From a virus: DNA of 24,880 nt. This document shows, in pieces, positions 11,185 through 24,124 of this stretch (the first letter of the stretch is position 1; each line of letters starts with the position of its first letter). Location: positions 1 to 24,880 of the IMG/VR virus record IMGVR_UViG_3300041411_000144; one strand, written 5' to 3'. The notes beneath the pieces are model-generated. The model was not told where the DNA came from, searched no databases, and saw nothing but the letters and a program-made list of their open reading frames with translations. Made by a program: the position numbers and the translations under genes.

Positions 11185-11199
11185 ATCTGCCCAAATGAA

Positions 11200-11233
11200 A
11201 AAGCCCCCGAATCCAAAAGGAAACAGGGGCTTT
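11200..11233 (-). terminator. Rho-independent terminator after the frameshift gene
   Basis: On the minus strand AAAGCCCC and GGGGCTTT pair around an 18-base loop, followed by TTTCATTT. It begins four bases after the stop at 11237 and is followed by promoter copy 3. The A-rich and T-rich flanks could make it work in both directions. Confidence 0.85.
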
Positions 11234-11236
11234 CTT

Positions 11237-12043
11237 TCACGCAAGCACCAGAGTTTTTGCAACGAAGTTTTCGAACGTGTGTAGCAGTTCGAACGTCGCC
11301 CAATCCGTCGTGGTGTAAATCGCATCGCTGGTCAGCATCGCACCATCAGCCAAATCAACGGCTTCCGGAACGCCCATCACAATGTTGAATTCCCATCCGT
11401 TTTTATAGACTGCAAAAATCGGAGAGTTGTCGAACATGGCACTGACTACTACGCATTTGTTTTGTTGGTCGTACCAGCAATCGTAAACCGTAAGGCCTTC
11501 GAGTTCTGACACGCCTTCGGATACCAACGCGCTTAGTGGCCCACTGAAAGTTTCAAGCAGATCACCGTTATGCAAAACAACGCGGAAATCTGTCGAAGTA
11601 TTCGTCAACCAAACGCGGCCAGTACCTACCGTTATCGAGTTCCATTCCGGCCCGATCAAGATCGTTCCTTGATCAGTTCCGAACGCAGGGCCATCGACAT
11701 TTCTGGCGCACACAAAATTGCCAGTAAACTCATGAACCAGCGTCCAGTCTTCATCGAGTGCATAGATCCCAACCCCGTCAACGCAGGCGTAAAACTTATC
11801 TGCGAAAACGACGTGCGAAAACACTAAATCAACATCCATTGCAGTCCACTCAATCTTGTCGAAAGATTCGTAGACTTTAGAACCCACTGCGATGTATCGA
11901 CCGTCTCCAGCCGCCACACCAACAATGGACGCCGCAACAGATGCAGGTACGAAACCATTAGACTGAACGAATAAACCGTTTCCATCTTGGTCAGTACCTG
12001 AACCACCGACAACATACGAACGTCGCGGAACAGGTTTTACGAC
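11237..12043 (-). CDS. Downstream part of a predicted -1 frameshift fusion; beta-propeller-like domain
   Basis: A 268-codon reading frame with no good start of its own. It is open from inside the end of the 308-residue gene, contains no ATG before 11917, and has only a GTG at 11917 with no clear ribosome-binding site. Codons upstream of that GTG look coding, with VVGGSGTDQDGNGLFVQSNG leading into GDGRYIAVGSKVYESFDKIEWT. The repeated pattern of Gly-rich turn, I/F-A-V, S-x-D and Trp-Thr resembles blades of a beta-propeller or BNR/Kelch-like repeat. Such folds are common in receptor-binding and carbohydrate-binding phage proteins. It is best read as the C-terminal domain of a 575-residue fusion made by slippage at 12043-12049. 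Separate initiation at 11917 is the alternative. A terminator follows directly. Confidence 0.7.
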   Translation of the reverse strand, partial: VVKPVPRRSYVVGGSGTDQDGNGLFVQSNGFVPASVAASIVGVAAGDGRYIAVGSKVYESFDKIEWTAMDVDLVFSHVVFADKFYACVDGVGIYALDEDWTLVHEFTGNFVCARNVDGPAFGTDQGTILIGPEWNSITVGTGRVWLTNTSTDFRVVLHNGDLLETFSGPLSALVSEGVSELEGLTVYDCWYDQQNKCVVVSAMFDNSPIFAVYKNGWEFNIVMGVPEAVDLADGAMLTSDAIYTTTDWATFELLHTFENFVAKTLVLA

Positions 12044-12963
12044 TTTTTTGTGATATTTGCCAACACTTCTACGGAAACCGCATCGCCTTCAGCCAAGCGT
12101 GGACGGGCTTCCAACTTCAGACTGAAAATACCCAACGGCACGCCGTCTTCGGTACGTTCAACACCAGCAGGAATTGCATGGTTGATATACGGGAAGGTGT
12201 ACTGCTGAATCATCTGCGTTACGCTATGGTCTGCGTTGGTTGCAGAATCATCGACAACACGAATGCCTTGGTTGTACCAAGTATAATTCGTGAGCGTTTT
12301 ACCATCCTTGCTCGGCGTATTTTGCAAATCCCATTTCATCGGGGCAATGGTGCCCGTTGGATCGGTGTCGATGTACAGGGAAATATCGTACATTTCTGTC
12401 AGGTCTGGAACGCCTTCCAAAACAGAACCGGCAGTGAGCGCAAAGGTCCAACGCTCGCCCGCGTCCAATTCGATATCGAAAGTGCCCGCGCCATCACCGA
12501 AGTATTCTGGATTGTTGTACTTACGCACAGCCAAGCCGAGTTCGATGTTTGCGTTTTTACCGATCACGAAATCATCGGCTGGATTACCGGTGCCGACAAG
12601 CATGTAATTTTGGCCGTTAACTTCACGAACAAAAACGGTTTCAGCTTTCAGTGTTTCGATCAGCGGGCCATAAACCACACCCGCCAGTGGGCCGGTGGCT
12701 GCCCAAGGGCCGAGGCAAATCAGCGTGTCACCGAAGTAAAACGAAATGATCTTGCCGTCATTGCCCGCTTCGATTTGCGTCATCACCGGAACTTCAGAAG
12801 AACCGTAATGCGATGCAACAGTTTTACGAAACGCGCCAGATTTTACGATTTCATCCATTTCCCCTTCGGAGACTTGGATGCGGCGCACGTTAGACGGATC
12901 GCCCTTGTCTTGAAGGGCTTCAATAATCTCGGCCCAAATGCCCGAGTACGTTTGGACATTCAT
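12037..12963 (-). CDS. Virion-like structural protein, upstream partner of a -1 frameshift
   Basis: A 308-residue protein starting MNVQTYSGIWAEIIEALQDK. After a helical N-terminal part (residues 1-60) it is beta-rich, with many Gly, Asp and Thr turns, for example LICLGPWAATGPLAGVVYG and DISLYIDTDPTGTI. This composition suits a tail or capsid-decorating protein, but I recognise no family. The last codons read ACA AAA AAG TCG TAA and contain the slippery heptamer A AAA AAG in the correct phase. A minority of ribosomes should therefore enter the -1 frame and add 268 residues. The ATG at 12963 has an AAAGGAA ribosome-binding site and overlaps a tiny upstream reading frame as TAATG. Confidence 0.75.
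   Translation of the reverse strand: MNVQTYSGIWAEIIEALQDKGDPSNVRRIQVSEGEMDEIVKSGAFRKTVASHYGSSEVPVMTQIEAGNDGKIISFYFGDTLICLGPWAATGPLAGVVYGPLIETLKAETVFVREVNGQNYMLVGTGNPADDFVIGKNANIELGLAVRKYNNPEYFGDGAGTFDIELDAGERWTFALTAGSVLEGVPDLTEMYDISLYIDTDPTGTIAPMKWDLQNTPSKDGKTLTNYTWYNQGIRVVDDSATNADHSVTQMIQQYTFPYINHAIPAGVERTEDGVPLGIFSLKLEARPRLAEGDAVSVEVLANITKKS
12043..12049 (-). promoter_or_regulatory. Programmed -1 ribosomal frameshift site (A AAA AAG)
   Basis: The heptamer A AAA AAG, in zero frame, is the same slippery sequence used by E. coli dnaX. It lies two codons before the zero-frame stop at 12037. After slippage the frame reads GTC GTA AAA CCT and stays open to 11237. A weak downstream pairing (AACC with GGTT, enclosing CGAC with GTCG) starts six bases after the heptamer. 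No dnaX-like upstream Shine-Dalgarno stimulator is evident. Confidence 0.65.
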
Positions 12964-21300: not shown

Positions 21301-22269
21301 TTACCTTCTTCTGGTGCCCATCACAGGTTTGCCACCATTCTGTTGTGCTTTTGCTTTCTGTTCCGCTTCGCGCCGGTCAGCTGCCAAAGTGGAATGGTGA
21401 TAGAGGAACATCCGCACCGGCATATTCATATCAGGCATAACCCCGAATTGCGACATGAGGTTGTAGCACATAACATAAACGTCTTTGTCGGAATTATCCG
21501 CAAAGAAGCTCAGCATTGATGGACTCGATTCGTGGAACATTACGTGGTTGCATTGACCGCAACGCAGCCGCACTTTTTCAGTGACGCCATGAAACCATTT
21601 CGTTTTTACTTTCTCGATTTCTTCGAATAGTTTCATGTCGGGCTGCGACATTAGGTAATTCAGCTTGGCTTTAAACGTCTTGCCTTGCTTAACCCAGCGC
21701 GCAATATCACCGACGTACTTATCACGCGGGTGATCGTCGATGTGTTCGTAATAATCGGTCAGTGTGCCCACGCGAGGCAGCGAGATTTTCGGATGGATCA
21801 GACGGTTGTTATCGTCGTCCAAAGTGTTCAGCAGAATTTCTGTTTGCGGAACAATTTCCGATTGCGTGTGGCCGCACGGTTGCAGCGTAAAACCCAACCG
21901 CTTTGCATCCTTGGCCTGCATACCGAAACCGATATTGTTTTTGCTGTTGACGTACACCATGTTGTTGCAAGTGTACTGCGCACGCACCGGGAATTCCGGA
22001 AAAGAGTTTTTGCGCAGGCGAGCCATGATGTACATGAAATCGCCGTCTGTTAATTCGTTCACGTCGATGTTGCAACACATTTGCACCGCACGAATAATGT
22101 GCTGGTGGGGCCGTGTCTTCGCCGTCATACCAGTGTGCAGCAGCGGCAATTCTTTCAGGACAAATTGCCGCAAATAAACGCGATCAAAACTGTAGAAGTC
22201 ATCAATTGCAGGGTTGCCAGTCAGTAAGTCCCCAACTTCTACAAAGAGCGCATCCAGATCGGTCGCCAT
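21301..22269 (-). CDS. gp26-like baseplate hub assembly protein, paralogue 2
   Basis: A 322-residue protein. The block DVNELTDGDFMYIMARLRKN (about residues 69-88) and the later C-G-Q-C pair in VRLRCGQCNHVMFHESSP resemble the T4 gp26 baseplate hub assembly family, whose members combine a DGDF-Y-I helix with a zinc pair near the C-terminus. The same features occur in the adjacent gene at 22269-23051, so the two are paralogues. This copy has a longer C-terminal extension (about 85 residues, ending in basic GTRRR). In this genome they occupy the slot where tail-assembly chaperones lie in many other phages. The start at 22269 overlaps the upstream stop as TAATG, and the stop lies five bases before the tape-measure-position gene. 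Confidence 0.7.
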   Translation of the reverse strand: MATDLDALFVEVGDLLTGNPAIDDFYSFDRVYLRQFVLKELPLLHTGMTAKTRPHQHIIRAVQMCCNIDVNELTDGDFMYIMARLRKNSFPEFPVRAQYTCNNMVYVNSKNNIGFGMQAKDAKRLGFTLQPCGHTQSEIVPQTEILLNTLDDDNNRLIHPKISLPRVGTLTDYYEHIDDHPRDKYVGDIARWVKQGKTFKAKLNYLMSQPDMKLFEEIEKVKTKWFHGVTEKVRLRCGQCNHVMFHESSPSMLSFFADNSDKDVYVMCYNLMSQFGVMPDMNMPVRMFLYHHSTLAADRREAEQKAKAQQNGGKPVMGTRRR

Positions 22270-23051
22270 TACACGAAGAACGAATGAGCATCGACGTTTA
22301 CATCGAACGCATGTTCACGCCCGCAACGTGGGCATTTCTTGTGTACGCGCTGCATCACGCCGTGGTCGAATTGGAAGTGGGCACGTGTGGCTTTATCGAA
22401 CAATTCCATTTCGATATTGTCGAGCGAGTTCAGTCGGTCGTGCAGGGTTTTACCTTCTTTCAGGTAACGCACGGGGCCGATTACTTTCTGGTTGCGCACG
22501 TCGGAACCGAGTTCTTTGTAGGCCACCAAATCGCGGACGCGTGGATAATCCAGTTCCGGATCGAGTTCGGATTCATCCATGAATTTCACGGTGAAATCTT
22601 CGAACGCTACGGTCTGGTTATTGTATTCGTCGCAATCGTGTTCGAGGAAAACAATTTTGCTCGGGTCTTCCATGTGTTCTTCGGCTTCGGTGCCTTTGGC
22701 CGCGTCATATTGCTCGGCCATGGTGTCGATTTCTTCCATGGTGTAAATCTTGCCGGAGTCGTCACCTTCGCGAGTGAAAACAATACCGGTGCATTCCCAT
22801 TCGCAAAAGATCGGGAGGTCACGCGAAAAGAAACGCAGCCACGTCAGGATGTAATAAAAATCCCCGTCGGTAAGCTGGTTTACATCGAAGTCCATAACCT
22901 GCCCTACAGCTTCGATCAGAGGCGCATCATTTTTTGTCAGGATCGCTTCCGAAAGATACGGCAGATGGCGCGGGCGAAAAGGATTTGCCTCGATGCTTTT
23001 AACGGCGTAAGGAATCCCACGGGACGGCAGATTAGAACTATCGAATTTCAT
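22269..23051 (-). CDS. gp26-like baseplate hub assembly protein, paralogue 1
   Basis: A 260-residue protein with DVNQLTDGDFYYILTWLRFF (about residues 56-75) and a C-terminal zinc-type pair in KKCPRCGREHAFDVNVDAHS. Both match the paralogue encoded next. Compared with it, this copy has an acidic middle (EEHMEDPSKIVFLEHDCDEY) and no long tail. T4 gp26 helps assemble the baseplate hub. The family link rests on these blocks and on gene order. The ATG at 23051 overlaps the upstream stop by ATGA. Together the pair may form a heteromeric chaperone, which is inference. Confidence 0.7.
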   Translation of the reverse strand: MKFDSSNLPSRGIPYAVKSIEANPFRPRHLPYLSEAILTKNDAPLIEAVGQVMDFDVNQLTDGDFYYILTWLRFFSRDLPIFCEWECTGIVFTREGDDSGKIYTMEEIDTMAEQYDAAKGTEAEEHMEDPSKIVFLEHDCDEYNNQTVAFEDFTVKFMDESELDPELDYPRVRDLVAYKELGSDVRNQKVIGPVRYLKEGKTLHDRLNSLDNIEMELFDKATRAHFQFDHGVMQRVHKKCPRCGREHAFDVNVDAHSFFV

Positions 23052-23551
23052 TCGTATGTCACCCTATCAATTGCAAAGTTTTGTTGAATCTTAATTGCTT
23101 GACCGCCGTTGTTCACTAAGCCGATGGGGCTTGTGGTGGTAGGCCAAACGTCTTCTAGCGATACGGTCATGATGGGCGAGTCAGTCGTGCGCCCGTCAGT
23201 CAGAGCGAATTTCATATTGCGTTTGTAATTGCCGGGCAGGTAGTAATAACCTTCCGTTGGATGCATTACGCGATTGCGCCAGTCATCGACATATTTGAAA
23301 CTGCGCATTGAAACGTCTTCGTAAAAAGTAATGTCGAATGCACTCAATTCACGAAAACCGGGATACTGTGCAAAGCGGCCAGCCATGAAAACAGGTTTCA
23401 TGTTGATCGACGGAATCGGCAACGTCACCGTTTCCACGTAGCTTGGATCTAGGTCGAAAGGAAGTTCGACGCAGTACCAATAAAAATCAAGCATCGGGCT
23501 TCTATCACCCGACCGTTTTTCTGCGAATTCTTCGAGTGAAAGGATTGGCAT
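23048..23551 (-). CDS. Second tail-tube-fold protein (gp19-like)
   Basis: A 167-residue protein starting MPILSLEEFAEKRSGDRSPM. It carries the pattern of T4 gp19-like tubes: SAFDITFYEDVSMRSFKYVD (about residues 75-94), followed by DDWRNRVMHP, a TVSLEDVWPTTTSP strand-turn, and a final QQNFAIDRV strand. The main tube protein at 23615-24124 shows the same order, with more divergent sequence. The ATG at 23551, after a GGAG ribosome-binding site, is preferred to an upstream start at 23599 that would run through the terminator hairpin. It may be a tube terminator, a baseplate-proximal tube protein, or a second tube subunit. Confidence 0.75.
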   Translation of the reverse strand: MPILSLEEFAEKRSGDRSPMLDFYWYCVELPFDLDPSYVETVTLPIPSINMKPVFMAGRFAQYPGFRELSAFDITFYEDVSMRSFKYVDDWRNRVMHPTEGYYYLPGNYKRNMKFALTDGRTTDSPIMTVSLEDVWPTTTSPIGLVNNGGQAIKIQQNFAIDRVTYE

Positions 23552-23574
23552 TTTCAGACTCCACACAAGCGAAA

Positions 23575-23607
23575 AAAGCCCAATGCAAAAAATATGCACC
23601 GGGCTTT
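23575..23607 (-). terminator. Strong rho-independent terminator between two tube genes
   Basis: On the minus strand AAAGCCC and GGGCTTT pair, with an inner TGCA/TGCA stem and a T-rich loop, followed by a run of six T. It begins eight bases after the tube gene stop. Placed after the sheath and tube genes, it would raise their transcript level above the baseplate genes, which must be reached by read-through or by a separate promoter. Confidence 0.85.
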
Positions 23608-23614
23608 CCGCGAA

Positions 23615-24124
23615 TCAGATAATGCGCTCTACATAACCGTAGGCGAAGGTCGCATCTTGACGCAATGCTTGACCGCCGCTGCCTTCGAAGGCGTACTCGG
23701 AAATTTCAGTAGGGAACATCCGGTGAATGTTCCAAGCCGCAGCATCCGCACCAGTTTGGTCGAACACGGTCAGCTGTGCGGTACGCATGTACGCATCGTG
23801 GAAACCACCGGTTTGCGTTTGCGTGGCACGGCCAACAGCCGCCCAATCTTTCAGAGCCTGATAAGTGCGTGCATCGTAAACTTCGTGCAGCGCCACGGTC
23901 ATGCTATGGCTGAAGGTTTTACGCGCAGCAAAAATCAGTTTGTGGCCGAACAATTCGACCTCAACAGTTTGCAGGCTAGCGCCGGGGAGCGAAGCGCCCA
24001 AGCACTGAATCCGCAATTGACGGCCATCGCCACCGCCCGGAATGTCAGTGAACAAAAGTTCAAAGTTGTCATTCAGCATCGGGTCGAGCAGGCTATACGC
24101 TTCGTCCAATGTTACTTTAGGCAT
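23615..24124 (-). CDS. Tail tube protein (gp19-like)
   Basis: A 169-residue protein of the length and pattern of T4 gp19 tail tubes. The N-terminus MPKVTLDEAYSLLDPMLNDN leads into a strand pair (FELLFTDI, LRIQCLGASLPG), an internal helix (YDARTYQALKDWAAVG), and the closing block NIHRMFPTEISEYAFEGSGG followed by DATFAYGYVE. The tube is the rigid inner cylinder through which DNA passes. The ATG at 24124 has an AGGTGA ribosome-binding site. It directly follows the sheath gene, the usual order in contractile tails, and is followed by a strong terminator. Confidence 0.85.
   Translation of the reverse strand: MPKVTLDEAYSLLDPMLNDNFELLFTDIPGGGDGRQLRIQCLGASLPGASLQTVEVELFGHKLIFAARKTFSHSMTVALHEVYDARTYQALKDWAAVGRATQTQTGGFHDAYMRTAQLTVFDQTGADAAAWNIHRMFPTEISEYAFEGSGGQALRQDATFAYGYVERII

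Follow-up and report, generated by a model that had tools for sequence, protein, structure and literature searches.

The window analysed here is a stretch of 24,880 bases from an IMG/VR virus record, and every feature of the frameshift locus described below lies on its minus strand. A gene of 308 aa (12963..12037) has the 3′ end ATC ACA AAA AAG TCG TAA, in which the heptamer A AAA AAG (12049..12043) occupies the zero-frame phase X XXY YYZ (ACA AAA AAG), as tandem slippage needs, and the TAA stop (12039..12037) follows one codon later. Starting at the heptamer, the -1 frame (12049..11237) is free of stops as far as a TGA at 11239..11237, a run of 270 codons that includes the Lys-Lys of the heptamer and adds 268 new codons. 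Tandem slippage would join residues 1–307 of the zero-frame product to these 268, giving a fusion of 575 residues in which the zero-frame Lys-Lys is followed by a -1-frame Val. The first ATG, GTG or TTG of the -1 frame is found 44 codons in. Downstream of the heptamer, after a spacer of 7 nt, lies a stem-loop (12035..11996), and a terminator-like hairpin with a T run (11235..11198, about -27 kcal/mol with its flanks) directly follows the stop of the long frame. A sequence-only reading of this DNA had earlier proposed a dnaX-type programmed -1 frameshift here, with the strand not given; the ending of the 308-residue gene, the phase of the heptamer, the 268 open codons, the lack of an ATG near their beginning and the size of the long form were all confirmed.

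An alignment search of IMG/VR returned seven loci, and repeat searches gave no more; with a single protein as the query, the same database yielded no relatives, and no relative of either domain was found among GTDB genome contigs. Ten further contigs matched a DNA pattern of the stem arms and were rejected, as tblastn showed that none of them encodes a relative. Both parts of the arrangement occur together in the Pseudomonas phages HRDY3 (313,683 bp) and Lu11 (280,538 bp). The comparison set consists of five distinct jumbo-phage sequences of one lineage, i.e., the window, HRDY3, Lu11 and the IMG/VR phages L008 (from a 314-kb contig) and L010. L009 is identical in sequence to L008, as is L013 to L012, and each pair was counted once. 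The nearest homologue (L011, 84% identity) is on a contig that ends before the junction. A more distant homologue of the 308-aa protein (L012, 40% identity) has a different ending (EFVEQP) and carries neither the heptamer nor the -1 domain; the domain was not found elsewhere in its 124-kb record, which may be a fragment.

Alignment with related phages had been set beforehand as a test of the proposal, and it showed that the heptamer and the open -1 frame are both conserved. The in-phase A AAA AAG is present in all five sequences, followed by TCG TAA in four of them and by TAA at once in Lu11, which places the zero-frame stop 0–1 codons past the heptamer throughout. In ORFs of at least 90 aa, the window and the four homologous loci each contain a single in-phase A_AAA_AAG, and because this sole occurrence lies 0–1 codons before the stop in every case, its placement is not due to chance. 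The -1 domain is uninterrupted in all five phages (270–275 open -1 codons past the heptamer), and its identity across them is 44–71%.

Pairwise pN/pS values are 0.32–0.55 for the -1 domain and 0.32–0.54 for the zero-frame gene, and therefore both frames behave as coding sequence. Together with its conservation in the five phages, this bears out the impression that the -1 frame looks coding. The stretch near the junction shows an additional constraint. At positions that encode the same residue, codon identity is 88% in -1 codons 4–23 compared with 52% over the domain, a level reached by none of 100,000 permutations, and the first 18 codons of the -1 frame rank top of 259 windows (median 46%). 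This points to a constraint on the RNA, beyond the needs of the protein.

The stretch 12035..11996 folds as ACCUG-UU-CCGCGACG / UGUC-G-GUGG-UU-CAGGU, with a minimum free energy of -17.1 kcal/mol, about two standard deviations below shuffled sequences (z -2.1). In the three sequences that were folded, energies range from -17.1 to -18.5 kcal/mol (z -1.6 to -2.1). The 13-pair stem-loop is found 7 nt downstream of the heptamer, within the range of about 5–9 nt for stimulatory structures, in four of the five phages, while two pairs are broken in the fifth (L010). Pairing is retained in 96.9% of pair cells across the five sequences, with one U-A to U-G change in Lu11. No compensatory changes were seen in the stem among the five, a covariation test that says little as the hairpin hardly varies. 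Synonymous change is suppressed across the stem-loop region, and an Rfam search gave no match. Fold energy, pair conservation and suppressed synonymous change suggest that the stem-loop is probably a frameshift stimulator.

The term dnaX-type applies in part. The locus shares with E. coli dnaX the heptamer A AAA AAG, its phase and a stem-loop a few nt downstream, whereas a conserved Shine-Dalgarno-like stimulator upstream of the heptamer, which in dnaX lies about 10 nt before it, was not found in the five sequences. Upstream anti-SD duplex energies are -2.6 to -7.0 kcal/mol (background mean -3.2, sd 2.2), and a GAGGT about 15 nt upstream of the heptamer is present only in Lu11 and L008. The genes themselves are unrelated, and frameshifting yields the short product in dnaX but would yield the long one in the Lu11 group.

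The same long frame could be reached if RNA polymerase added an A within the six-A run, so that some mRNAs carried it directly. The run is invariant in all five phages and an extra A gives the same frame, but six A is a short run for transcriptional slippage by bacterial RNA polymerase, and in every case a G follows the run, giving AAAAAAG, which is the slippery form for ribosomes. The hairpin is also at ribosomal spacing, and the suppression of synonymous change reaches about 20 codons past the run. Polymerase slippage is an improbable source of the long form.

Initiation of the -1 domain as an independent gene, from an internal start codon or by re-initiation past the TAA, is more doubtful still. 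It is how the domain is annotated in HRDY3 and Lu11, whose records show the second half solely as ORFs that begin at internal start codons, at differing places. However, the first ATG, GTG or TTG lies at codons 44, 89, 42, 90 and 12 in the five phages, with no place in common, and a product begun internally would lack the most conserved stretch of the domain, KKVVKPVPRRSLVVGGSGT. A terminator-like hairpin with a CTTTTTC tail is located within a few nt of the long-frame stop in all five phages, and only there, from which it follows that the two frames end as one unit, as had been proposed for the window. A simple terminator scan did not list this hairpin, presumably owing to the loop limit of the scan. 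The internal-start ORFs (L001 7194-7807 in HRDY3; L002 7038-7727 in Lu11) look like annotation errors, as does an antisense ORF in the HRDY3 record that also covers the end of the -1 domain.

A wrong or lost base in the six-A run, homopolymers being the usual place for errors, or a dead second half would make this one long frame or a decaying gene, but the frame relation is the same in five distinct sequences, which come from separate projects and differ in their zero-frame endings (TCG TAA or TAA), and both frames are under purifying selection, which leaves such an origin with a negligible probability. Sequencing error, pseudogene and separate initiation are effectively excluded; the outcomes named beforehand as counting against a frameshift (a relative with a separate start for the second frame, a variable heptamer or a base error) were looked for, and none of them holds.

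The short form is probably a capsid decoration protein, because it is homologous to gp9 of Sphingomonas phage PAU and to a PA5oct protein whose annotation as structural is based on ESI-MS/MS, and is weakly similar to linking protein 1 of Agrobacterium phage Milano. Its homologues include those in HRDY3 and Lu11. PAU gp9 matches the short form over residues ~106-305, with E-values of 8e-12 (tblastn) and 8e-20 (profile); the name 'capsid decoration protein' for gp9 comes from a note in its record. The profile match to Milano linking protein 1 covers residues 121-240 (E 0.0027). Homology to annotated capsid and virion proteins supports the earlier assignment of a structural protein. Searches of Pfam and PHROGs with either frame returned nothing significant, a Hoc-like match standing at 0.22. 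The structural model of the short form (pLDDT 58) has no significant fold match in the PDB. Ig-type sandwiches lead its matches at Z 6-7.6, which can reflect a common arrangement, and the modelled second half resembles such sandwiches at a level that can arise by chance.

The domain encoded in the -1 frame is hardly known to sequence libraries, apart from one family member that matches a Pfam beta-propeller at 0.0016. Its model is of low confidence (pLDDT 53, pTM 0.45), and the best structural matches of this model are beta-propellers, confined to residues 35-162 (Z up to 11.5), among them designed propellers and a chain of a cyanophage tail complex. Both lines agree with the beta-propeller-like character proposed at first, and from the model the domain is probably a beta-propeller. 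Its profile had no match in PAU, PA5oct, MIJ3, PaBG, Motura, AD1, Y3, Alexandra or NCTB.

We consider a programmed -1 ribosomal frameshift in the capsid decoration gene of Lu11-like jumbo phages to be the best explanation of these data, with a probability of about 0.93 on the sequence evidence. This reading is based on the heptamer, stop and open, conserved -1 domain in five phages, the constraint on codons at the junction, and the downstream hairpin. It is also based on the lack of a shared start in the -1 frame, the terminator-like hairpin placed only after the long frame, the joint absence of heptamer and domain in the 40% homologue L012, and the homology to capsid decoration and virion proteins. 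A fraction of the ribosomes would terminate at the TAA and release the 308-aa decoration protein. Others would pause at the hairpin, where both Lys-tRNAs on A AAA AAG would slip back one base together, and translation of 268 further codons would then add the probable beta-propeller as a C-terminal domain.

We infer that frameshifting takes place in cells, that one form, in the earlier proposal the long one, would be in the minority and that both would enter the virion. The shared part would attach both forms to the capsid, and the predicted added domain would face outwards and bind something, possibly a receptor as suggested at first. The rate of slippage would then set the number of copies per head that carry the large outer domain. 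It seems somewhat more probable than the reverse that the frameshift in Lu11-like jumbo phages sets the fraction of decoration proteins with a beta-propeller, so that each head would bear an adjusted number of large outer domains for binding.

C-terminal domains added to phage structural proteins by frameshifting have been described for T3/T7 gene 10, Lactobacillus phage A2, Listeria phages A118, A500 and PSA, and SPP1 gp17.1* (PMC5009743, PMC9022992). These resemble the present locus in that a slip site lies at the end of a structural gene and a fraction of ribosomes adds an outer domain, resulting in two forms of one protein. Their extended proteins are major capsid or tail proteins and the domains are mostly Ig-like (not in T7), whereas in the Lu11 group sequence analysis predicts that a probable decoration protein gains a domain that is probably a beta-propeller. 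Outer domains added by frameshifting are therefore already known, and the present case differs in which protein is extended and in the kind of domain it would gain. The literature searched contained no earlier case in which frameshifting adds a beta-propeller to a component of a phage head, and no paper on HRDY3.

In PAU gp9 (L003 2027-4333), the homologous domain is followed by an in-frame C-terminal extension of ~480 residues, a different solution with the same layout, and the -1 domain profile is without a match in PAU. A 93-aa gene, PaBG_00061 (L021 5001-5282), corresponds to just the first ~90 residues of the decoration protein. In the sections of the Milano report drawn on here, cryo-EM shows linking protein LP1 (gp16) anchored to the capsid through an N-terminal arm, and LP1 is believed to bear an outer domain of Ig type that is loosely attached (PMC10491603). 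The same sections mention no frameshift extension of the linking proteins (PMC10491603). LP2 (gp128) resembles the LP1 arm alone, much as PaBG_00061 is the N-terminal module on its own. The match between LP1 and the short form is weak (E 0.0027) and limited to residues 121-240, outside the N-terminal part. The decoration protein may serve as a mount that bears different outer parts in different phages, the outer part in the Lu11 group being one that would be reached by frameshifting.

The locus represents a well-supported recoding event in cultured jumbo phages that is unannotated in the public records of HRDY3 and Lu11, and these two cases show that automatic annotation misses halves of proteins reached by frameshifting. 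Outer domains gained by frameshifting were known from major capsid and tail proteins and were mostly Ig-like; this case widens their range to a probable decoration protein whose added domain is probably a beta-propeller. With the Lu11 group, it can be tested directly whether phages use the slip rate to adjust how many outer domains a head carries.

Elsewhere in the window, two adjacent minus-strand genes (24124..23615 and 23599..23048) both match the tail tube family phrog_45, and because of this the lineage may build its tail tube from two paralogues. Two further adjacent genes on the same strand (23051..22269 and 22269..21301) both match phrog_13792, the second also matching a baseplate hub family, so that a probable baseplate gene is apparently duplicated in tandem.
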